Virus record (IMG/VR): IMGVR_UViG_3300035698_003618
Location: 1 to 24,170 of that record
Length of the DNA: 24,170 nt
Source: a virus
Direction: 5' to 3' (one strand)
The position numbers and the translations under genes are program-made. The notes under the pieces were generated by a model. It searched no databases and was not told where the DNA came from. It was given only the letters and a program-made list of their open reading frames with translations. Of this stretch, positions 2,754 to 21,049 are shown in pieces. Position 1 is the stretch's first letter; each line of letters opens with the position of its first letter.

Positions 2754-3182
2754 ATGAAAATGGTCAAATTGATAGGCGTTTCAATTATTGTATTTTTGCT
2801 TTTGGGTGTGGGCACGGGGATCGGGCAAGAAATTTGCGCCGGCGGCGTTTCGGATCATAAGACGGTTCCAGGCAAGCCATTTAATGTATGTTGGGAAAAC
2901 ATCGGCGCGACGGATCCGGATATCGTCGGGTTTCGGCTTTATATGTCGCGAGTGTCGGGCGTTTTTGTCACGGGCCCGGGTAACGAATATTTGACGTTTG
3001 ATGTGGCCAATTGCACGGGGGTCGATTGCGAGGCGCCGATCACCGGATTGACCGAGCTCGGCGATTATTATTTTGCGGTGGCGGCGTTCGTTGACGATTC
3101 CATCGAGGCCGATACAAACGGTCAGGCGCACGTTAAATTGAGAAACAAACCGCGATCGACGGGATGCTCGATCAAGTTTTAA
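2754..3182 (+). CDS. Secreted fibronectin type III-like protein (moron)
   Basis: The 142-residue product begins with a clear Sec-type signal: positive start MKMVK, hydrophobic core about residues 6-23 (LIGVSIIVFLLLGVGTG), likely cleavage near GIGQ-E. The mature part looks like one fibronectin type III domain, with PFNVCWENIG, a GFRLYMSR strand and the closing LGDYYFAVAAF ... 'HVKL' strand. Several Cys (about residues 27, 46, 83, 87 and 138) could form disulfides after export. It sits between the tail completion and tail terminator genes, a place normally holding only morphogenesis genes. An AGGGGGG ribosome binding site precedes the ATG. It may be an exported accessory protein, for example acting on the cell surface or in superinfection exclusion. 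Function is inferred only from export plus fold. Confidence 0.65.
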   Translation: MKMVKLIGVSIIVFLLLGVGTGIGQEICAGGVSDHKTVPGKPFNVCWENIGATDPDIVGFRLYMSRVSGVFVTGPGNEYLTFDVANCTGVDCEAPITGLTELGDYYFAVAAFVDDSIEADTNGQAHVKLRNKPRSTGCSIKF

Positions 3183-3194
3183 AGGGGTCTATCC

Positions 3195-3599
3195 ATGCAA
3201 GAAGTTCAAGCGGCAATTATGACATTATTCGCGCCGGTGGGAGAAAAGCCGGCGATTTATACGTCATTGGGCGGTCGACTTAGGCACCATACAGCACGTC
3301 AAGGGGATCCGTTTCCATATTGTGTGTATGCCTTTTTAGGCCTCGGGCCGGATCATTGGATGGGCGGCGAGCTTCAAGAAGAAATCACCATGCAATTTAA
3401 TCTTTTCACGAACGAGTCGAGCGCCGTCAATTTAAATACCTATTACAAACAATTGACGGCGCTCTTTGATGAATGCACGCTCACGGTATCCGGATATGAC
3501 TTTTTAAGAATGGAGCGCACGTGGGCATATCCTTTGCGGGATGAGATAAACGAGGTTTGGCAATACACGATTCAATATAGGATTACTGTCGAAACATAG
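3195..3599 (+). CDS. Tail terminator protein (DUF3168-like)
   Basis: This 134-residue protein starts 'MQEVQAAIMTLF', followed by IYTSLGGRLRHHTARQGDPF and PYCVYAFLG. A central 'ITMQFNLFTNESSAVNL' strand, an 'LTALFDECTLTV' helix-strand and a C-terminal 'EVWQYTIQYRITVE' strand follow. This matches the DUF3168 / lambda gpU-like tail terminator pattern, in which a ring of subunits stops tail tube growth and binds the head connector. Its position just before the tail tube gene (apart from the two inserted enzymes) is where a tail terminator belongs. An AGGGG motif precedes the ATG. Confidence 0.8.
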   Translation: MQEVQAAIMTLFAPVGEKPAIYTSLGGRLRHHTARQGDPFPYCVYAFLGLGPDHWMGGELQEEITMQFNLFTNESSAVNLNTYYKQLTALFDECTLTVSGYDFLRMERTWAYPLRDEINEVWQYTIQYRITVET

Positions 3600-3607
3600 G
3601 GGGCGCG

Positions 3608-4057
3608 ATGAAAATAAATCTTGGTTGCGGGGCCAAAAAAATCAGAGGGTTTGAAAACATCGACATTCGAGCGGGAGTCAAGCCGGATGTCGTTTTGGAT
3701 GTTGAGAGAGGTTTATCTCTCTATCATAATAACACAATCGATATGGTTCGAGCGTTTGATTTCCTCGAGCATATCCGGCCGGAAAATGTCGTTTTCGTTA
3801 TCGATGAGATTTGGCGCGTTTTAATCACCGGTGGTCAGTTCGAATTTTCGATACCATCGACCGACGGCCGCGGTGCATGGCAAGATCCGACACATCGATC
3901 GTTTTGGAATTATAATTCGTGGCTTTATTGGACGGTCGAGATTCATCGCGTCGAAATAGGTGCCCGGGCAAAATTTAAGATCATAAAGCTCGAGGATCGA
4001 CTCACGTGCGGCGAGCTTCGAATCATTCACACTTACGGTTTATTAGTTAAATCATAA
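3608..4057 (+). CDS. SAM-dependent methyltransferase, class I
   Basis: The 149-residue product opens with the Rossmann SAM-binding motif I, KINLGCGAKKIRGFENIDI, with the INLGCG Gly-loop at residues 3-8. Next come DVVLDVERGL, the motif IV-like 'TIDMVRAFDFLEHI', and the 'DEIWRVLITGGQFEFSIP' strand typical of Methyltransf_11-type enzymes. The segment DPTHRSFWNY is seen in methyltransferases of surface-sugar clusters. It is short for the class but has the core fold. It lies directly before the glycosyltransferase gene with a 16-base gap, so the two probably act on one target. The substrate cannot be read from sequence; a glycan or a virion protein is the contextual inference. AGGGGG precedes the ATG. 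Confidence 0.75.
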   Translation: MKINLGCGAKKIRGFENIDIRAGVKPDVVLDVERGLSLYHNNTIDMVRAFDFLEHIRPENVVFVIDEIWRVLITGGQFEFSIPSTDGRGAWQDPTHRSFWNYNSWLYWTVEIHRVEIGARAKFKIIKLEDRLTCGELRIIHTYGLLVKS

Positions 4058-4073
4058 AAGGAGGGCGAAAATC

Positions 4074-5321
4074 ATGGGGCGGAAAGTAAGCATTTGTATT
4101 CCAATAATCAGACCAGAAAAGGCGCGAGATTGCGTCAACGCTATTATTGACAATGCCGGCGTGCCGGAAAGCGACTTTGAAATCGTGACGGAATTCGACG
4201 AGGAAATGATCGGATGCCCGAGGATGTTGAAAGGCCTCGTCGAGCGGGCCAAGTTCGATTTGATCGCATTTATCGGCGACGACTGTTTGCCGGAAAAAAA
4301 CTTTTTAAAATACGCGCTCGAGGCAATGGAAAACCTTCCTGACGGGTGGGGCGTCGTCGGTTTCAACTCGGGCGGCAATGATCACGCACATTGGCTCGCG
4401 GATCGGCGGATCGCGGAGCACATCGAGGGCGGCGATCTATTCTCGACCGATTATCATCATTGCTATTGTGACGACGAAATAAAGGATATCGCGACCGAGC
4501 TCGGGCGGTGGTTTTATGCCGAGGATGCACGCATCGAGCATCTACATCCAATATTTCAAACGGCCGATTATGACGAGCACTACAAACGCGCATATGAGAA
4601 CGGCGCTTTTCAAAACGATCAAAAAATATATTTTCGGCGCAAAATAGCTCGAACCATGCGACTCCATGGGCCGCGGGTGTGTGTGGCTTTTCCATTGATC
4701 GATGCAAAGGTCTATTCGTCTTTTATGTTTTCGTTCCTGGCGATGGATAAGCCGCAAGATTATACGATCGTGTTTCCGGATTTCCCGGGCAACCATGACG
4801 CCGTGCGGAATAATCTCGTTATGCAGTCCTTAAATTTTGGGTGCACTCATACGATTATGATGGACACCGATCAAATATATGGTGCTCGAGATATGATCCC
4901 GAGAATGATGTCGGCCGATAAAGATGTTCTCGGGTGTATGGTTCAAAGGCGATATCCGCCGTTTGATCCGGTCATTTTCCGGGGCAAAAAAGACGAGCTC
5001 GTGTCGGTTTCCGACGATGAGATCGAGGGGGCCATGCACTCGAAAGAATTGATCGAGGTCGACGCGACGGGGTGCGGGTGCATCATGTATAAAAACGACA
5101 TTTTTCTTGATATCGATTTTCCATGGTTTGAGCTCGTCGCCGACGAGAAAACCGGGGCGCCGATCGGCGAGGATATCGGATTTTGTTTCAAATTGAAGGA
5201 AAAAGGATATAAAATATTTGCCGATGTGACGGCGAATATTCAGCATTTAAGCCTTGTCGCGGTTGATTGGGATCTTTACAAGGTGTGGCAAAAATTGCAC
5301 GGCACGGCGGGGCGTGCGTAG
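4074..5321 (+). CDS. Tandem two-domain GT-A glycosyltransferase
   Basis: The 415-residue protein appears to hold two GT-A-like domains. Domain 1 (about 1-195) begins VSICIPIIRP, as GT2 enzymes do. It has a nucleotide-binding-type acidic site FIGDDCLP (D69, D70) and a Leu/His-rich end. Domain 2 (about 200-415) starts 'RVCVAFPLIDAKVY' and has a true DXD motif MMDTDQ (D264, D266). It continues with 'VDATGCGCIMYKNDIF', an acidic GEDIGFC motif (E366, D367) and a following QHL (H391) that could complete metal binding. Such enzymes move a sugar from a nucleotide sugar to an acceptor. A strong AAGGAGGG ribosome binding site precedes the ATG. The gene sits between the tail terminator and tail tube genes, after a methyltransferase. 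Virion or host-surface glycosylation is therefore likely, but the acceptor is unknown. Confidence 0.75.
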   Translation: MGRKVSICIPIIRPEKARDCVNAIIDNAGVPESDFEIVTEFDEEMIGCPRMLKGLVERAKFDLIAFIGDDCLPEKNFLKYALEAMENLPDGWGVVGFNSGGNDHAHWLADRRIAEHIEGGDLFSTDYHHCYCDDEIKDIATELGRWFYAEDARIEHLHPIFQTADYDEHYKRAYENGAFQNDQKIYFRRKIARTMRLHGPRVCVAFPLIDAKVYSSFMFSFLAMDKPQDYTIVFPDFPGNHDAVRNNLVMQSLNFGCTHTIMMDTDQIYGARDMIPRMMSADKDVLGCMVQRRYPPFDPVIFRGKKDELVSVSDDEIEGAMHSKELIEVDATGCGCIMYKNDIFLDIDFPWFELVADEKTGAPIGEDIGFCFKLKEKGYKIFADVTANIQHLSLVAVDWDLYKVWQKLHGTAGRA

Positions 5322-5353
5322 GTGCAAACATTTTAAAATAGGGGGTTTTTATC

Positions 5354-5806
5354 ATGGCAGGGGAATCAATAATAGGAATCAATTGTAAGGTAACATTAGG
5401 CGCGAATACTATCCTCGGCCTGGGCTCTTGGGAAATCGGAGGCGGTTCCGTCGCAGAGTTAGACGACACCGAATTTCTCGACGCTTATTATGACATGAAA
5501 CTCGGCTTGATCACCGGCGGGCAAGTGTCTTTTCGGGGGTTGTATAAACCAGACGACGCGACGGGGCAAGAATTGATCCGGGCGGCGTTTTTCTTCAAAT
5601 CCAATTTGACCGATTTGCGGTTCTATAACAATTTGGTATCTTATTGGACGCCTAACAGCACGACGGTCGCCGGGGGTGGGTTGCCGGCCGCGGTACCGGT
5701 ATCGCATATCAATATTACAAGCGAGCCCGGGATATCTGCCGATCGATCCGGATTGATGCAAATCAATTTTACGGGCCGAGTCGTCGGTGCAATGCGTTTG
5801 ATCTAA
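5354..5806 (+). CDS. Major tail (tube) protein
   Basis: A 150-residue, beta-rich protein beginning MAGESIIGINCKVTLGANTILGLG. It contains the 'ELDDTEFLDAYYDMKLGLITGGQVSFRGLYKPDDATGQEL' stretch, in which short exact pieces (VSFRGLYKPDDATGQ) follow the tail tube pattern of G.v...G..d..d..q..l. It ends 'INITSEPGISADRSGLMQINFTGRV', like the last strands of siphophage tube proteins. Position (after the tail terminator, before the tail chaperones and tape measure) is exactly that of the tube gene. An AGGGGG motif precedes the ATG. A stem-loop follows the stop, consistent with this being the most strongly expressed tail gene. It is the nearest candidate substrate for the upstream modifying enzymes. 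Confidence 0.8.
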   Translation: MAGESIIGINCKVTLGANTILGLGSWEIGGGSVAELDDTEFLDAYYDMKLGLITGGQVSFRGLYKPDDATGQELIRAAFFFKSNLTDLRFYNNLVSYWTPNSTTVAGGGLPAAVPVSHINITSEPGISADRSGLMQINFTGRVVGAMRLI

Positions 5807-5923: not shown

Positions 5924-6340
5924 ATGCGGATTAAAAAAAGCGAGTCAAGATGGTTTCCGATTCCGGATGATCCGGACGAATCGAGCGTTTTAGTCAAACA
6001 TTTAAGCCCGGGAGAGATTCAAGATATCTCGGACAATGTCGTCAAACACGAGGTCGAATATAAGCTCGATAAAAAGACAAAAAAACCCGAAACGGCCGTC
6101 ATGCGGCAAACATCAAATCGGGGCCAAGATATGCGCGAAACATTTCTCGCGTGCGTTGAGGATTGGAAAAATTTCTATAATCTTCAAAACAAAAAGATGA
6201 AATGCAATCCGGAAAACATCATAAAAGCGATGCGCGAGATCGAGGGATTTATCGAATTCGTCGCCGATTGCCGCGAGACTCTTTCGAAGGATTTAGCAGA
6301 CGAGGCAAAGGGACAGGAAAAAAACTTAAAGAGCACATAA
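5924..6340 (+). CDS. Tail assembly chaperone, upstream frame (gpG-like)
   Basis: This 138-residue product begins RIKKSESRWFPIPDDPD, followed by 'VLVKHLSPGEIQDISDN', a central DWKNF segment and 'NPENIIKAMREIEGFIEFV' near the C-terminus. It matches the pattern of the first of the two overlapping tail assembly chaperone frames of siphophages, which bind the tape measure during tail assembly. The ATG at 5924 follows AGGGGAAAGGGG with good spacing and is preferred to the TTG start 36 bases upstream. Its last codons contain a canonical -1 slippery heptamer, so a fraction of ribosomes should continue into the next frame to give a fusion of about 250 residues. Confidence 0.8.
   Translation: MRIKKSESRWFPIPDDPDESSVLVKHLSPGEIQDISDNVVKHEVEYKLDKKTKKPETAVMRQTSNRGQDMRETFLACVEDWKNFYNLQNKKMKCNPENIIKAMREIEGFIEFVADCRETLSKDLADEAKGQEKNLKST
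6319..6325 (+). other. Programmed -1 frameshift site A AAA AAC
   Basis: In the zero frame the codons are GAA AAA AAC, so A AAA AAC fits X XXY YYZ exactly, with correct phasing. A -1 slip moves ribosomes into the frame of the downstream chaperone, which is open from before the site to 6675. An imperfect hairpin at 6341-6368 (about 10 bp with a one-base bulge and one T-T mismatch, loop AAAAG) lies 15 bases after the heptamer and could stimulate slippage, although the spacing is longer than usual. The zero frame ends only five codons after the site. This arrangement is the known mechanism for making the gpGT-type fusion in tailed phages. Confidence 0.85.
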
Positions 6341-6345
6341 TCGCG

Positions 6346-6675
6346 ATGTCGGAAAAGCCGTCATGCGATCAATGCAAAATGACGTATGAGCTTTATGACG
6401 AGATTCCGCCTTGCGCTGATTGTGTGCCCCCTTTGGATCCCGAAAACATTTTGCCGGCCAAAATATTTGATATTATTGAATCACAAATCGGCGTTAATAA
6501 TGCGGCCGTTTTTCAAATTATTGATCGATACATTATGGGATATGATGATCGAGAGTATTGTTTCAGACTGTTATTGCGAGGAAAAGAGACTTTAAACCTT
6601 TATCGACAACAACAAAAATTATTAAAGGGCGCGGGCGTGGATAAAAAAGGGGCATCTAAAAAATGGCAAAATTAG
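6346..6675 (+). CDS. Tail assembly chaperone, downstream frame (gpT-like extension)
   Basis: Given from its first ATG, this frame encodes 109 residues. In vivo it is probably made mainly as the C-terminal part of a fusion through the slip at 6319-6325, reading ...EKN-LKEHIIAMSEKP. No good ribosome binding site precedes the ATG, and that ATG lies inside a predicted hairpin. The product has two CxxC pairs near its start (CDQC and CADC), a possible zinc knuckle, followed by 'PENILPAKIFDIIESQIG', a helical section and a basic tail. Cys pairs followed by 'PEN' are seen in second-frame chaperones of similar phages. Its end overlaps the tape measure start by 13 bases. The fusion runs 5924-6325 then 6325-6675. 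Confidence 0.75.
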   Translation: MSEKPSCDQCKMTYELYDEIPPCADCVPPLDPENILPAKIFDIIESQIGVNNAAVFQIIDRYIMGYDDREYCFRLLLRGKETLNLYRQQQKLLKGAGVDKKGASKKWQN

Positions 6676-9600: not shown

Positions 9601-9797
9601 GATTGCAAAAAGGCGAGTCGGTTTCGGCCGAGGGATCGGGCGGCGCTGGCACGAAAGTATATTTTATTAATAAAGGCGTGATATGCACATCCGACGTCGA
9701 TCAATGGTTTGCCGATCGGATGTCGGCATCTCAAAGCGGCCGGCATGGTGTGCAATATCAAGTCGTAAAAAATGATCAAATAGGGTTAGACGTATGA
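6663..9797 (+). CDS. Tail tape measure protein
   Basis: At 1044 residues this is the longest gene of the tail module, in the standard position after the chaperones. Residues about 5-35 are helical, followed by a Gly/Ala-rich hydrophobic stretch (about 45-68) and the tape-measure-type 'ATVMGDIQSALVGNYETMKKYG' region around 165. A Trp/Asp/Asn-rich zone (about 367-500) repeats DNW-like units. Further hydrophobic segments lie near 605-630 and 720-765. The C-terminal third is Gly-rich and contains a short duplicated unit, ASGGQVKRHFDGDD and ANGGQIKRYYDGEG. The protein sets tail length and is ejected into the cell on infection; by the usual rule of thumb its length implies a tail of roughly 150 nm. 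No peptidase motif was recognised. The stop overlaps the next ATG (ATGA). Confidence 0.85.
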   Translation: MAKLGSALVYVRAVKDSLRGDLMSAERDIDGSAGRMNQSIGKVNWAAVGIAGVAAAGVVTAGLIKAIGAASDLQEITSKFETVFQGQEKHAKKFVDELTSGYAMSTGSARKFLGAMQDLLVPLGLGAEDAALLSGEIVKLSADLGSFNNQDTATVMGDIQSALVGNYETMKKYGVVLTAASVEQRIYKDGLAESKDQITASDKALAAYNIIVDASTFAIGDMERTALSYANVMKANEAVMGDLWADLGNEFIPLATETMIEFNKLIKDTSPALISFAKNTVYLIEDLGWLFETTDTKLQSLYNFLIGDAIKATHNMADATGVWLREQLLANDALEKTDKFLHDAARASKTQMAEIDANVADASRSIKDNWSSVFTDPSDGFTARVNVAKFENQASLREMQADWDNFTDNWENGFTTSADHIMRSNVGMVDDNVMEWNRLKSEWDQLTPGMHDNWGQFTEGTKDDVKDQVDFAATSWASMRNNWDDETSTMADLWNGPNGAVKGIQEGFAEIIKDANDMAGPVKDFILALHDGVVDVIGEAVDMMIDGAMDMEKLGETLLQNMESALAQFATKMLTKVMDTLIDLIVANVTLGAVESGASAGWGGAQAAAIQMGVYIAAAAGAIVTAQGLKNNFAEGGWISRHPCGGSICEGSGIADDVFLGSTPGIDHYGMGGEFVVNKRSTAKHLGQLKAINADKGYASGGQVKRHFDGDDLAPPWEGVADSMALGTTFAFGAGTMAGGPWFGLGYAAGFLLSTIAEAFVVKGAGDFLSNNVDWANGGQIKRYYDGEGIQDYRDPLQYAEGQTGWGTTTTTPGPGFGPSFSFSPPNLDDIVGGLPGGDTIDEIIGGAAGWTQDQLNNLGQVIGGDMTLGDALSSGWEGMKDNLEGVYDILGDCMDDLIDWDAFWEYVQKLIRQPLKQVAKDIAEPGQYWPQTSGILEDIFADGPGMLWEFIKTSIPNIDDLYGCLHTGTDYVPQDGLYRLQKGESVSAEGSGGAGTKVYFINKGVICTSDVDQWFADRMSASQSGRHGVQYQVVKNDQIGLDV

Positions 9798-12682
9798 CAG
9801 TTAAAATAATTGCCGAGGATCAGATAAAAGACGATCATTTCGATAATGGAACGATCGACGAGCAAGATGGCATTTATATCGGGCAACCCGTGGCGGCTGT
9901 CACTAATACGGGCCAAATCCGACCTATCACTCTCGGAGATGAAAACGGCACCATTAACACTTTTACATATAATGGCGCGTGCACGGTCGGAAAGAATTCA
10001 ATCCCGAATGGCGCTTTTGAGGGTTCGTGGACGGCCGGCATCGCGCTCGGATGGCTTGCGACCGGTGCCTCGCAAACATACACCGAAGAATCGACGATCG
10101 TGCATGATGGCATCCGGGCTCAAAAAGTCGAATGTGTTGCGGATGGTGAGAGAATCGGCATCGGGGAATCGTTCACGACGGTAAACGCTGTCACATATAA
10201 GTTTGTAGGGTGGGTTTATTGCAATGAAGCGTGCACGGTTACGGTCACGCATGCGAATTTGACGGGTGTTTCTGAGACATTTGCCGTTGACGCGACAACA
10301 TGGACATTGCTCGAATGGACATCGGTCGCGACGGCAACGGGTGCGGCGAATCTGGAAATAATACGAGCTATCGCCGATTCGGATCCGGGGGATTATATAA
10401 TTATCGACGACGTCTTTATGTGGTCACTTGCGACAAATTCATTATTTGATACAAATTTAGAGGTTTTCGACGTGGATTCTCTCGTCGGCGCGAAAATTGA
10501 ATTTACTTCCGGCACGAACGACGGCGAGGTCGTTACCATTGTACACAATGAAACCGGATACGGGCTTATATACTTTTCTCCGAATGTAACATCGGCGCCG
10601 GTTAATGGGGACACATTTACTTTAACAATCCCGGCCGCCGATCTTGATTTTACGGTCGAGTTGATGAGCTCGGGCGATCTTGGAAGTGCGCTTTTTAAAT
10701 GGAGTTATACCGGCGGCACTACTGAATTGGGTCAAGAATATGCTCCTACAGAAATCCATCGTTATGAAATGAGAGGGAATGCGGGCGGCGCCGGCGCAAA
10801 GGTGATAGAGGCGCCGAATGGTACTTTGATTTGTTTTTTTTCTGACAATGGAAACGATCTCTCGTATAAAACGAGCGCGGATCAAGGTGTGACGTGGTCG
10901 GCACAAAACGATATCGACGAGGATGATAGTTATTATTTGACCGATGTTATCGTTCTTGATTCGGGTCGAATAATGGTCTTTGCATGGCTCGGAGGGGCGG
11001 CGGGAACGGAGATTTTTTATTCTGACGACAATGGCACAACATGGTCGGCCGGGGTGCTTGTGACGCCCAATATAAAATCCTGCATTCAACTGCCGAATGG
11101 TAATTTATTGGCGTTTAACGATGAAAACGACGATATCAGGTGTCAAATAAGCGATGATGGTGGGTTTACGTGGGGCTCTGAGATTACGGTCGTTCAAGAG
11201 GCAAACGATCAGGGAAGTCCATCGGCAACAATCGCCGCGAATGGCGACATCGTTTGTGCTTATGAAACCGACGAGGATGCCATCGGCGATACCGAGATAA
11301 AATGCAAAATATCCTCGGATGGCGGGGCGACGTGGGGGGCCGCGATATCTATTTCCGATTATGGTGGGGCGACCATGCGAAAAGAGCCGAATCTGATTAC
11401 ATATCCGGGCGGAAAAATATTTTGCTTTTATTTACAAGAATATCCGCTTTTGTCTGCTGATTTTGGGATAATAGTTCACACTTCATCGGTGGATAACGGT
11501 CTAACGTGGGTTGGATCGGTTGTTTTTAATTCAAGTCCGGATCCGGCTTATGATCGCCGCGATGTGCACGTTTCGGTCGTTTATGGTTCAAGGATTTGGG
11601 TTTGTTATCGCGACGTTGGTCAAAATATTTTAATGGCGCATGTATCGAATCGACATCGTCTTGCAAACCATATTTTATATGGAATCGCGACCGGCAAAAA
11701 CAACGTAAAGCAACATTTGATATGCGATGTCAATTTGAGATGGCACGGCGCATCGGGCGTCGTCGGCGATTCGTGGACGTTTAAGCCGCAATGGCAGTAT
11801 GCCGCGAAAAACATTATCGCGAACAGCGTCAATCAAGTTTATCGATCGATAGCGGATAACGTCGAACGAAGTATTTCCATCGGTCATGGCGCCGAGGAGG
11901 TTTATAAGGTTTCGGGTGTCGCGTTGTTCAATTGCAATTTTTGGGATGCAAATTTCCAAATGCACGCAACCGATGTATGGACGTCGCCGACCATCGACGA
12001 GGATATTCTTTTCACGCTCGCGAGCGGCACGATTGACGAGGTCGTCAAAAACCACATCTCCGACACTTCATTGCTTGCAAATTACAAAAATCACGAATTA
12101 AAAGGCAAGTTTTATATGGCCACATCCGGCACCGATTCCGGCGAGGCGTGGCGGATCCGCGACAATGTCGGCGATTATATCGTTTTAGACGAAACCGCGG
12201 CGCATAGTCTCGCCGCCCTGGACACGTTCCGGATTTATGGATCAAAAGCCGCGGCCGAATTCACGGGTTCATTAAAACGATTTCTCCGGCTTAATATTCC
12301 GGCTCAACACACACCGGACGATTATTATCAAGTCGGGGCGATGGTCGCCGGCGAGGTTATCACGCTCAATCGGGCATGGGCGATCGGATATGTCAAAGGC
12401 ATCAAAACGGGCGTCGAGCTCTTGCGGCCGACTCATGGCGGCATGTTTCCGATCGAGCGAAAGGATAATAAATATACATTTACGGTAAATTGGGCCGGAT
12501 CCGAGCACACAGTGCGGCAAGCCGAGGCGCTTTATAATTCATTGCGCGGCCGGAATCTCGCATTGATTCCGGATGCTGACAACATGAACGACGTTTATCT
12601 ATGCAAGATAATTGGCGGGCTTGATATGAAACATTGGTTTAAAACCATGTATAATTTTTCTTTGAATTTTGAGGAAATTTAA
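9794..12682 (+). CDS. Tail-tip protein with carbohydrate-binding and sialidase-like Asp-box domains
   Basis: A 962-residue mosaic. Residues about 1-60 look like a tail-tip N-terminus. About 68-215 (NSIPNGAFEGSW ... YIIIDDVFMWSL) resembles a CBM_4_9-type carbohydrate-binding jelly roll. About 330-620 is a sialidase-like beta-propeller with five Asp-box motifs of the S-x-D-x-G-x-T-W type near 361 (SADQGVTW), 410 (SDDNGTTW), 453 (SDDGGFTW), 507 (SSDGGATW) and 566 (SVDNGLTW). The last 250 or so residues return to a phage tail pattern (ELLRPTHGGMFPIE, TFTVNWAGSEHTVRQAE, SLNFEEI). I did not find a convincing arginine triad, so enzymatic sialidase activity is unproven and sugar binding is the safer reading. 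It begins at ATGA over the tape measure stop and ends at TAATG. Confidence 0.75.
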   Translation: MTVKIIAEDQIKDDHFDNGTIDEQDGIYIGQPVAAVTNTGQIRPITLGDENGTINTFTYNGACTVGKNSIPNGAFEGSWTAGIALGWLATGASQTYTEESTIVHDGIRAQKVECVADGERIGIGESFTTVNAVTYKFVGWVYCNEACTVTVTHANLTGVSETFAVDATTWTLLEWTSVATATGAANLEIIRAIADSDPGDYIIIDDVFMWSLATNSLFDTNLEVFDVDSLVGAKIEFTSGTNDGEVVTIVHNETGYGLIYFSPNVTSAPVNGDTFTLTIPAADLDFTVELMSSGDLGSALFKWSYTGGTTELGQEYAPTEIHRYEMRGNAGGAGAKVIEAPNGTLICFFSDNGNDLSYKTSADQGVTWSAQNDIDEDDSYYLTDVIVLDSGRIMVFAWLGGAAGTEIFYSDDNGTTWSAGVLVTPNIKSCIQLPNGNLLAFNDENDDIRCQISDDGGFTWGSEITVVQEANDQGSPSATIAANGDIVCAYETDEDAIGDTEIKCKISSDGGATWGAAISISDYGGATMRKEPNLITYPGGKIFCFYLQEYPLLSADFGIIVHTSSVDNGLTWVGSVVFNSSPDPAYDRRDVHVSVVYGSRIWVCYRDVGQNILMAHVSNRHRLANHILYGIATGKNNVKQHLICDVNLRWHGASGVVGDSWTFKPQWQYAAKNIIANSVNQVYRSIADNVERSISIGHGAEEVYKVSGVALFNCNFWDANFQMHATDVWTSPTIDEDILFTLASGTIDEVVKNHISDTSLLANYKNHELKGKFYMATSGTDSGEAWRIRDNVGDYIVLDETAAHSLAALDTFRIYGSKAAAEFTGSLKRFLRLNIPAQHTPDDYYQVGAMVAGEVITLNRAWAIGYVKGIKTGVELLRPTHGGMFPIERKDNKYTFTVNWAGSEHTVRQAEALYNSLRGRNLALIPDADNMNDVYLCKIIGGLDMKHWFKTMYNFSLNFEEI

Positions 12683-15401: not shown

Positions 15402-15437
15402 AAGGAAAATATTCATGCGAAGGAAAATATTCATGCG
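15402..15437 (+). repeat. 18-bp perfect tandem duplication of ribosome binding site and start codon
   Basis: The unit AAGGAAAATATTCATGCG occurs at 15402-15419 and again at 15420-15437 with no mismatch. Each copy carries an AAGGAAAA ribosome binding site and an ATG (15415 and 15433), both in the same frame. The gene after it can therefore start at either site, six codons apart. The extra N-terminal residues (MRRKIF) add positive charges to the signal peptide. Confidence 0.9.
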
Positions 15438-18204
15438 TTGGCATCGTGTCTGCTATTACAGTTTAATAGTTTTTTTCTTTTTGTCCGGACCCGCGTTCGC
15501 AATTCAAATGTTGCATTTTCCCGGGGTTTCGACCGACGACGTGATTTCGTATGATTGCGACTCGACATTCGATTATCTCTCATATTGGACGGGCGACAAT
15601 GAGCTCGAGGGCGCCGATACCGATACGATTTGTTATGATAGCGGGGTGGCCATCAAACAGGGCACGACAAACAATGCGAACATTGGGCTCGAGTATGGCG
15701 ATCAAGGGTGCAAAGCCGAATACGATGTTTGTCAAAATTTTGAGGGTACGGGTTATGATAATTGGGAAACATGGGTTGAATCCGGCGTTCCGAATGAAGA
15801 TTATACGACAACGGCATTAAGGGGCGATCAATCTTTATATATGAGTGTCAATGGACAGTCTACCTATGAGGCCTTTTCAAATGAACATCCAGACGGCACG
15901 AGCTCGTATTTTGCATTTAGATATATGTTGAAAACCCTTCCGTCGTCCGATGCTGACATACTCATTGTAAAAGACGGCTTGTCATGGGCGGGTATTTTTC
16001 ATCAACGAACGGATGGCGATATCAATTTCGGGCATGCGTCGATTTCCGGATCCGATTATAATATTTCGATCGATGTTTTGTATTATATATGGATCCAATG
16101 GGCGAGCGAAACGTCGACGAATGCAAACGGCATCTCTCGGATGTGGGTCGGCACGACCGGAGATTTCGAGTCGGCGGTGCTTGTTTCCGATCAGCACAAT
16201 GGAACCGATAATTTCCCGGGCATCGATCGGGCCGCTTGGCAAGTTGAAAATGACGTCGTTTACATTGTCGATCAATTTATCGCGTCAAACACGCCGATCG
16301 GGGATTTGCCGGCCGGCGACGGTTCGATCGGTTTTATGTCTAATTCGACCGACGATCGCATTCAATGGGCGAATTCAACGGATGATTTGATCGATTGGAA
16401 TCAAGGCACGATATGGATCAAAACTCGAGCAGAGGTTTCTATCACGACCGATTCGACGTTGTGGGAGGGGCATCTTGATATAAACAATACCATGCGCGGC
16501 CATCTCGAAATATCGCCGCTTTTGGCTTATCGTGGCACATACGAGGGAAATGCGACGGCCACAAACGTGACGACGAGCGACGCGATAACGGTCGGAGCAA
16601 CTTCCGGGTGGTGGTATCTTGGTTATTCGTGGGATCAGGACGCGGTCGGGGATGATAATTATATAACGGCCGTTCAATCGCCATCATGGGGCGACGCCGT
16701 CGGCGAGAATGACAGTCTAACGGCATGGACGGGCACGCCGCTCGAGTTGACACTCGGCACGGATTTTAGGGGCACGCAGGGCGACGAATTCAAGTCCGAT
16801 GAATTTATCGTCATAAACGATTTTCGGGCGCCGCATCCGGAATGGATCCCGCTCGAGGATCCGGCTTGTGTCGGGGCGTGGTTGATGAATGATCCTGTCG
16901 GCATGGGCGCCGCGGATGCGAGCGGCAATGGCGTCACGCTCAGCCATTTCGGAGGGGCCGACACGATGCCGACATCGTCGGACGTTCCGAGCGGATATTC
17001 CGGGTTCTCTCGTGATTTCGAGGATGCCGACGCCGAGGGGCTTTACGAGCTCGACGGCGGCGCGACGGATCTCTCGGGCGTCGATCAACAAATATCATTC
17101 GCCGCGTGGATAAAAATCGAGGATGATCAAGGCGCGGATACATACATAATTTCTAAAAATTCGGCCGGCCAAAGGCAATATCGTTTGTTTTATGATGATT
17201 CAAGCGATCATATTGTCGGGCTTGTCTCGAGCGATGGCGCGGCCGCGGTTTCGGTATATGGAACGACGTCCATCGATGATGGAAATTGGCACCATGTCGC
17301 ACTTACTTACAACGATGTCGAAATCAATTTATATGTTGACGGCGAGCTCGACGATTTGACGCCGGCGGCGCATACGGCGGGGCTCTTTGACGGCACGGCA
17401 TGGTTTATCGTCGGGAATTCTAGCAACGGCGGCGGGAACGGGTTTGATGGTCTTATCGACGAGGTAATTCTGTTTAGTCGCGGATTGTCTGCGGCCGAGG
17501 TTAAGTTTATTTATCAAAAAGGCATTACCGGCGACAAGGGCGCTCGAGATGCTTTTTGTTATGACACGCTTTTTTGTTATGAGGACAGCGATTTTTCATG
17601 GGATACGACGCCCGGGGCCGAGGATTGCGACGGGTACGACGCCGACGGTGATTGGTGTGATCAAGAGCCGACGATTTTCAAGGTCGGATCCTATGCGATT
17701 GGCGTTCGTGGTGCGAATACGGTTTATGTCGGCGAAACTGTTTCCGACGATCATCCGGGCTTGAATGAATTTTATCTCGAATATTGGGTTTATGGTGATC
17801 ATTCGTTAAATGAGGGCATGCACGGCGATAATGACGATAATTCGGAATATGTTTTTGATGTGTGGACGTATTCGGATCTCGAGCCCGAAATCTATTACGA
17901 CAACGGCGCCGCCTTTTATGCGTCGAACGAAACCCACACAACAAACGAATGGTATCGCCATTGCATATATATAAAAGTGGCATCCGGGCCCGGGGCGGTA
18001 AACGGGATAATTCGAATGTGGATCGACTCGGATCAAGACGGCATTTTCGAGGGGGATGAAATCTTTATAAATCAAACGGCGGTCGACACCGGATCCGATC
18101 ATATTTTGCAATCTCTCAAGGTTCAAGGGCCGGCCGCGACCGAGACTCAATATTATGACAATATACGATTACGATATGGCTCGCCGCCACATCCGACGAG
18201 CTAA
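15415..18204 (+). CDS. Secreted multi-domain LamG/jelly-roll fibre-like protein
   Basis: The 929-residue protein has a classical signal peptide: MRRKIFMRWHRVC, a hydrophobic core (YYSLIVFFFLSG) and cleavage at AFA-IQ. Starting at the second ATG (15433) would keep a working signal. Four concanavalin-like beta-sandwich parts follow, at about 105-292, 306-468, 484-702 and 726-925. The third is clearly LamG-like, with 'VGAWLMND', 'SFAAWIK', the 'GNWHHVALTYNDVEINLYVDG' core and 'GLIDEVILFSRGLSAAEV'. The fourth contains a loop DSDQDGIFEGDE (871-882) that matches the EF-hand pattern D1-D3-D5-G6-E12. It follows the fibre gene and precedes the lysis genes, the usual place for a receptor-binding protein. 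Export, if real, suggests a role outside the cell as well. No catalytic site was recognised. Confidence 0.7.
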   Translation: MRRKIFMRWHRVCYYSLIVFFFLSGPAFAIQMLHFPGVSTDDVISYDCDSTFDYLSYWTGDNELEGADTDTICYDSGVAIKQGTTNNANIGLEYGDQGCKAEYDVCQNFEGTGYDNWETWVESGVPNEDYTTTALRGDQSLYMSVNGQSTYEAFSNEHPDGTSSYFAFRYMLKTLPSSDADILIVKDGLSWAGIFHQRTDGDINFGHASISGSDYNISIDVLYYIWIQWASETSTNANGISRMWVGTTGDFESAVLVSDQHNGTDNFPGIDRAAWQVENDVVYIVDQFIASNTPIGDLPAGDGSIGFMSNSTDDRIQWANSTDDLIDWNQGTIWIKTRAEVSITTDSTLWEGHLDINNTMRGHLEISPLLAYRGTYEGNATATNVTTSDAITVGATSGWWYLGYSWDQDAVGDDNYITAVQSPSWGDAVGENDSLTAWTGTPLELTLGTDFRGTQGDEFKSDEFIVINDFRAPHPEWIPLEDPACVGAWLMNDPVGMGAADASGNGVTLSHFGGADTMPTSSDVPSGYSGFSRDFEDADAEGLYELDGGATDLSGVDQQISFAAWIKIEDDQGADTYIISKNSAGQRQYRLFYDDSSDHIVGLVSSDGAAAVSVYGTTSIDDGNWHHVALTYNDVEINLYVDGELDDLTPAAHTAGLFDGTAWFIVGNSSNGGGNGFDGLIDEVILFSRGLSAAEVKFIYQKGITGDKGARDAFCYDTLFCYEDSDFSWDTTPGAEDCDGYDADGDWCDQEPTIFKVGSYAIGVRGANTVYVGETVSDDHPGLNEFYLEYWVYGDHSLNEGMHGDNDDNSEYVFDVWTYSDLEPEIYYDNGAAFYASNETHTTNEWYRHCIYIKVASGPGAVNGIIRMWIDSDQDGIFEGDEIFINQTAVDTGSDHILQSLKVQGPAATETQYYDNIRLRYGSPPHPTS

Positions 18205-20142: not shown

Positions 20143-20212
20143 GAATAAACAGCCTATCGCTTATCGTGTGGCCGGATTTGGGCCATGTCATAAGTCAAAA
20201 CAAGGGGGTTTC

Positions 20213-21049
20213 GTGGATATAATTCCCGGAATTTATAATTTAACAGACGAACAATATCACCATACCGATCCATGGTCGGATGCAATTTCATCGACTTTTC
20301 TTAAAAACCTTATCGGAAAAAGTCCACAACACGCCATTTTCGAGCGTTCAAATCCTACCGACAAAGCCGAATTAAGATTCGGAAAACTCTTTCACACCAT
20401 TTTACTCGAGCCGGATAAATTCGCCGACAAGGTCGTCTTTTGGAATGGGCGCCGCACGGGTAAAAAATATAATGAGCTCGCGGCGGTTGTCGGCGATCGT
20501 GCTATCGTCAACGAACGAGAACATGATCAATTAAGGCGCATGCGCGATGCAGTAATGAAAACGGAAACCGCGAAAGGATTGTTTTCCGCCGGCATGGCCG
20601 AGGAAAGTTTTTTCTTTGTCGATGGGCCGACCGGATTAATGTGTCGATGCCGGCCGGATTGGCAAGCGCCGAAAATCCAGATCATCGCGGATCTTAAAAC
20701 AACGTCAAATCCCGCGAGCAAACAATCATTTTCGCGAACGATCGCGCAATTCCATTATGATTTGCAAGCGGCTTTTTATATGGGCGGTGTGAATAGCACG
20801 CTTACAAAACGACCTAAAATTATCTTTGATACGTGGATTTGGATCGTCGCCGAAGTCAATCCGCCATATGGTGTCGGGATATACGAGGCCGAGCACAACG
20901 TGCTTGAGAATGGGCGGGCCAAAGTGCGATGGGCGCTCGATAAATGTTCCGAATGTTATGCGCTCGACGAATGGGGCGGATATGCCGACGAGGTCGTCAA
21001 GGTTGATATTCCAGGGTGGGCAAACTGGAAAAAGGCGGGGCATGAATAA
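20213..21049 (+). CDS. PD-(D/E)XK nuclease, RecE/DUF3799-like
   Basis: I choose the GTG at 20213 because AAGGGGG lies 5-6 bases before it; the upstream ATG at 20168 lacks a site. The 278-residue product has the layout of phage RecE-type exonucleases (PDDEXK, DUF3799-like): N-terminal 'YHHTDPWSDAISSTFLKNL', RFGKLFHTILLEPDKF (His about 60), CRPDW (Asp about 147), the catalytic ADLKTT (D160-x-K162), and the HYDLQAAFY helix (Gln about 184, Tyr about 188) that completes the active site. Such enzymes chew one strand of double-stranded ends to feed a single-strand annealing protein. Neighbouring recombination and replication genes fit this. The next gene starts inside its end. Confidence 0.8.
   Translation: MDIIPGIYNLTDEQYHHTDPWSDAISSTFLKNLIGKSPQHAIFERSNPTDKAELRFGKLFHTILLEPDKFADKVVFWNGRRTGKKYNELAAVVGDRAIVNEREHDQLRRMRDAVMKTETAKGLFSAGMAEESFFFVDGPTGLMCRCRPDWQAPKIQIIADLKTTSNPASKQSFSRTIAQFHYDLQAAFYMGGVNSTLTKRPKIIFDTWIWIVAEVNPPYGVGIYEAEHNVLENGRAKVRWALDKCSECYALDEWGGYADEVVKVDIPGWANWKKAGHE

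Follow-up and report, generated by a model that had tools for sequence, protein, structure and literature searches.

We identified a locus in a virus record in which the gene of a two-domain glycosyltransferase (GT) lies immediately 5' of the gene encoding the major tail (tail tube) protein. The window, meaning the whole stretch of DNA that was analysed, is 24,170 nucleotides long (IMG/VR record IMGVR_UViG_3300035698_003618, positions 1 to 24,170). A glycosyltransferase-type gene was always found just before the tail tube gene in this tube family, which belongs to a large group of uncultured tailed phages, suggesting that these phages coat their own tails with sugars. We consider it probable that the locus is a tail-tube glycosylation module, in which the second GT domain (gtC) O-glycosylates the tail tube protein in the cytoplasm and optional enzymes extend or methyl-cap the glycan.

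The features of the locus are all located on the plus strand. Its left border is a tail terminator or completion gene (3195-3599; PF11367, 24.7 bits against a cut-off of 24.5; phrog_176 tail terminator, E 9e-4), and on the right it is bordered by the tail tube gene (5354-5806), the stop of which coincides with the end of the stretch highlighted by the original prediction (5806). The two enzyme genes claimed for the slot between these borders were located there: a methyltransferase gene (MT, 3608-4057, 149 aa) and the GT gene (4074-5321, 415 aa), which encodes gtN (approximately residues 1-196; 4074-4661) and gtC (approximately residues 197-415; 4662-5321) in one open reading frame. The motifs named in the original prediction were all found, INLGCG at residues 3-8 of MT and GDDCLP (68-73), DTD (264-266), GED (365-367) and QHL (390-392) in GT. 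Its statement that each gene has its own strong ribosome-binding site was slightly overstated: such a site precedes the GT gene (AAGGAGGG, 4058-4065) and also the tail tube gene (AGGGGG, 5340-5345), but MT has only a GGGGCG run near its ATG. A search for a promoter or terminator belonging to the MT-GT pair gave nothing above chance.

Several other genes in the window were noted. Directly 5' of the tail terminator gene, positions 2754-3182 encode a protein of 142 aa whose N-terminus resembles a signal peptide (hydropathy 2.37) and which has no family match. Positions 5927-6340 and 6202-6675 hold a probable tail assembly chaperone pair in overlapping frames (weak match to phrog_313), for which a programmed frameshift is possible. 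Sugar-related domains also occur in two large proteins of the tail region (9794-12682 and 15415-18204). These are BNR/sialidase-like repeats (PF13088, 1.4e-11) and, together with a possible signal peptide, a lectin-like Laminin_G_3 domain (PF13385, 1.3e-25). A DUF3799 PDDEXK-like nuclease (1.4e-26) is encoded at 20168-21049, likely within a replication/recombination region.

The AF2 model of GT (pLDDT 90.8, pTM 0.88) consists of two GT-A domains. Comparison of the two predicted structures with glycosyltransferase families, which had been proposed as a check, showed gtC to be A197/Mnn9-like and gtN to be GT2/GT27-like. The best structural match of gtC is A197 of STIV (PDB 2c0n; Z 19.2, 2.5 Å over 172 residues), with Mnn9 reaching Z 16.0, and profile matches were obtained to Mnn9 (E 4e-6) and A197 (E 4e-4), the latter alignment spanning the GED motif. 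gtN matches polypeptide GalNAc-transferases (Z 15-16; GalNAc-T2, Z 15.8, 2.7 Å over 186 residues), and its matches to PF13641 and PF00535 are under their cut-offs. In the PHROG collection, phrog_14945 (glycosyltransferase, E 1.5e-11) was matched by the N half of GT and phrog_1574 by the C half. Full-length GT relatives are 39-56% identical. Across 21 of these relatives, D264, D266, G365-E366-D367 and H391 of gtC (the kept DTD and GED motifs among them) and D42, D69, D70, H106, D133, E135 and H156 of gtN are invariant. As the donor/metal-binding and acidic residues are invariant in both domains, there is no support for either domain lacking a donor site, and the claim of two GT-A-like domains is borne out by confident models. 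By fold and motifs, gtC and gtN are both GT-A glycosyltransferases, predicted to transfer sugars.

STIV A197 is essential, with the glycosylated major capsid protein as its presumed substrate, and a D151E mutant is delayed (PMC10551542). Counted along the chain in the profile alignment, A197 D151 is equivalent to D367 in the GED motif of GT. Unlike GT, A197 is a single-domain protein of an archaeal non-tailed virus with a proposed capsid substrate, and the identity is 18%. The GT-A fold and DxD region are also common to Mnn9/Anp1 (GT62), LH3/procollagen glycosyltransferases and Mimivirus R699; the match of GT to the Anp1 Pfam profile (1.6e-6) is slightly below the cut-off. LH3 and R699 align over both GT domains, but with an rmsd of about 20 Å, indicating that the domain arrangement differs. 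Moreover, Mnn9, LH3 and R699 act in eukaryotic pathways, and the GT described here has no hydroxylase domain. The GT27 polypeptide GalNAc-transferases and GT2 enzymes resemble gtN in fold, but gtN has no lectin domain and the identity is about 14%.

The linkage between the GT gene and the tail tube gene was analysed in IMG/VR with the tail tube protein as the sole bait, which yielded 151 loci, 150 with enough upstream sequence and one cut off. A predicted glycosyltransferase-type gene was present 5' of the tube gene in all 150 loci (gtC in 130, another family named gtX in 18 and both in 2). When the loci were clustered by tube identity, this was the case in 102/102 clusters at 95%, 56/56 at 70% and 15/15 at 50%. 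These counts concern this tube family and were obtained from metagenomic fragments with mechanically called genes; the tube bait was first taken from GT-bearing loci, and a second, wider scan did yield gtC-free loci. The gap between the glycosyltransferase-type gene and the tube gene is 60 nt or less in 104 of the 150 loci, and the genes overlap in 30. In the reverse test with gtC as the sole bait, a tube gene was found downstream in 74 of 74 untruncated loci. In loci where both borders are present, counted with redundant loci included, gtC was located within the slot between terminator and tube 187 times and outside it 7 times (gtN, 98 and 2; MT, 96 and 2). The distance correlation over 99 loci was 0.44 (rho) for gtC and tube and also 0.44 for gtC and chaperone, compared to 0.13 between tube and terminator and -0.04 between tube and g3, indicating that gtC, tube and chaperone tend to travel as a block.

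Together, the slot and linkage counts indicate that gtC is a core part of the tail operon. The earlier description of the enzyme genes as inserted next to the tube gene therefore had to be abandoned, as gtC is a near-obligate neighbour of the tube gene and, throughout the lineage, belongs to the tail operon as a constant component. An insertion or moron was ruled out by the presence of a GT-type gene in every informative locus and by the G+C content, which is level across the region. The existence of full-length GT relatives at 39-56% identity, combined with the linkage in 150 of 150 loci, shows that the observation is not due to chance. The linkage indicates shared function or shared expression and does not in itself identify the tube as the acceptor.

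The other enzymes of the slot are optional. Among 78 first-scan loci, gtN is fused to gtC in 55 and separate in 4, and was not found in 19. A survey of the co-occurrence of MT and GT at this site, as suggested by the original prediction, showed that only 24 of the 80 first-scan loci carry MT, which argues against an obligate MT-GT pair; the fixed pair is gtC and the tube gene. Further genes in the slot encode GT2, GT17 and GT29-like transferases, methyltransferases, radical SAM enzymes and GDP-mannose dehydratase/epimerase, as well as a few HNH endonucleases, and the slot looks like a glycan-diversifying cassette around a fixed GT. MT is a small Methyltransf_11-type enzyme, in line with the SAM methyltransferase read from its INLGCG loop: PF08241 is matched only just above the cut-off (21.3 bits against 21.2) and phrog_6636 with E 2e-12, N4, L5, G6 and G8 of motif I are invariant in relatives, and D19, FLEH and DPxH are conserved. 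METHYLTRANSFERASE: MT relatives are widespread, and a tail-module relative was undetected in 74 of 80 MT-seeded loci. The commonest family near MT in the MT-seeded loci consists of GT2-type proteins (12 of 51 scanned), so that a glycan is the likely substrate, and MT is proposed to be a glycan O-methyltransferase.

All 18 gtC-free loci carry the same family, gtX, 5' of the tube gene, and in several loci gtX is fused to another domain, either GT4-like or a methyltransferase. Two distant gtX members match PF13712 (Glyco_tranf_2_5, best 1.7e-9) and most members have no Pfam match. Since hhalign of gtX gave no support against gtC (probability 1.6%) and a probability of only 20% against the whole GT alignment, gtX is called a glycosyltransferase solely via these PF13712 matches of distant members. 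By this homology, gtX is a putative glycosyltransferase that takes the place of gtC. The gtX profile (e.g., L239:2250-2999) also matches PDB 2nxv/2qgi, annotated as 'ATP synthase subunits region ORF 6' (E 1.7e-10).

The sequence matches of the tail tube protein are weak (E 0.05-0.13). Its AF2 model (pLDDT 75.7) matches tail tube structures first, with the GTA tube 6tba (Z 9.3), the monocin tube and lambda gpV at the top, and in view of this pLDDT the fold is assigned with moderate confidence. Ser96 (codon 5639-5641) sits at the end of a predicted turn in this model. Of the 142 distinct gtC-linked tube proteins, 141 have Ser or Thr at this position, as do all 41 representatives below 60% identity. 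In the gtX-linked tubes, for which the alignment near the turn is uncertain, the aligned position is Ser or Thr in 0 of 13, and most of them have a Ser one residue earlier. Judged from these sequence comparisons, the pattern fits an O-glycosylation site read by gtC, making Ser96 a candidate site, but the residue could instead be conserved for a structural reason. In three loci (L034, L039 and L181) the tail tube gene is present in two tandem copies beside gtC.

In the proposed module, the soluble GT would be expressed late and would transfer a sugar from a host NDP-sugar onto newly made tail tube protein, the proposed acceptor, in the cytoplasm. The first transfer would probably be carried out by the gtC domain, probably onto Ser or Thr, with Ser96 as the candidate. 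A second sugar would be added by gtN and the glycan would be O-methylated by MT, after which it would be displayed on the numerous tube subunits of each virion. The benefit to the phage may lie in shielding, stability or assembly.

Virion glycosylation, including that of tail tubes, is already known in mycobacteriophages; what is new here is the lineage itself, the constant pairing of GT and tube, and the exchange of one GT-type gene for another. According to PMC12363180 and PMC12619734, which cite Freeman et al. 2023, the capsid and tail tube proteins of the mycobacteriophages Che8, Corndog and Myrna are glycosylated by phage-encoded GTs, and the mycobacteriophage glycans are reported at C-termini, whereas the candidate Ser96 is internal. 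Che8 gp110 is a possible distant relative of gtN (20.3 bits, with 7.9 as the best of 2000 shuffles; hhalign probability 51%), and no gtC match was found among Che8 gp108-110. The Che8 GT genes lie at the genome's right end, far from the tail genes, whereas GT adjoins the tube gene here. In the Rhodococcus cluster CB phage Peregrin, GT gp60 and methyltransferase gp49 were read as a sign of virion glycosylation (PMC13313380); judging by gene number, the two are separated from one another as well as from the genes of the tail tube. Among the GT and MT matches in named phages, which also included Synechococcus loci, those in Paenibacillus PG1 and Streptomyces Wofford lie in other contexts. No match to this tube family was found in 50,697 records of annotated or named phages, and the open-access journal literature searched yielded no account of a GT gene adjoining that of a tail tube.

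In several other phages, most of them podophages, a gtC relative was found a short distance downstream of the major capsid gene; in Microcystis phage Mel-JY34 and three Manatee Spring phages (L333, L334, L335 and L193), this arrangement suggests capsid glycosylation. The podophages with such a gtC relative beside the capsid gene do not have this tube, indicating that the gtC family is not bound specifically to tubes. The capsid-side position suggests that GTs of the gtC type frequently have their place next to a gene that encodes an abundant virion protein. The main acceptor could be another virion protein (capsid, tail tip or several), with the tube gene merely co-transcribed. The podophage gtC relatives directly after the major capsid gene argue for this, as do the mycobacteriophage GTs, which act on capsid and tube though they are unlinked to tail genes. 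We regard it as unlikely, but as the most serious alternative: gtC lies beside the tube gene, and not the capsid gene, in every informative locus, and in L192 MT and gtN have moved upstream of the terminator while gtC stayed beside the tube gene.

Temperate phages often carry genes that modify host surface glycans, and eight of the cargo GTs match the GtrB-like profile phrog_841, as would be expected if the enzymes served serotype conversion, exclusion of other phages or modification of glycolipids. We give this reading little credence, since no membrane segments were detected in GT and MT whereas GtrA/B-type systems use membrane proteins, and since the genes occupy a late tail operon position with fixed linkage to the tube gene. 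It is about equally improbable that the GT-fold protein mainly helps the tube to assemble, as a structural chaperone or assembly factor, and could do without catalysis. The gene does adjoin the tube gene and the tail chaperone, and gtC is co-inherited with the chaperone too, but the donor/metal-binding and acidic motifs are all invariant at 40-56% identity, gtC is replaceable by a GT-type family, and the same slot holds sugar-modifying genes. Glycosylation or methylation of phage DNA is the least credible alternative, for although DNA-glycosylating phage GTs exist (cited in the mycobacteriophage virion glycosylation literature) and some slots contain radical SAM and methyltransferase genes, the enzymes match GTs that act on proteins and polysaccharides, both by structure and by profile, and the genes lie in a tail operon.

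The preferred reading remains glycosylation of the tail tube. The module was also found on cellular contigs of Desulfovibrionaceae (L189), Deltaproteobacteria, Pseudomonadota, Lutibacter and Methanoperedens MAGs, for which binning errors are possible. For the lineage as a whole we propose, tentatively and with slightly less than even confidence, that tail building necessarily includes glycosylation of the tube, with a tube-dedicated GT that is inherited with the tube and replaced only by another GT, and with a variable enzyme cassette that would give each phage its specific tube glycan. To our knowledge, virion tail glycosylation has so far been shown only in a few mycobacteriophages. If the proposal is true, glycosylated tails would be a fixed trait of a broad environmental lineage instead of an oddity of a few mycobacteriophages, and the GT and the tube would form a dedicated enzyme-substrate pair with a named candidate site. 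It would also raise the question which pressure besides animal antibodies selects for sugar-coated tails.
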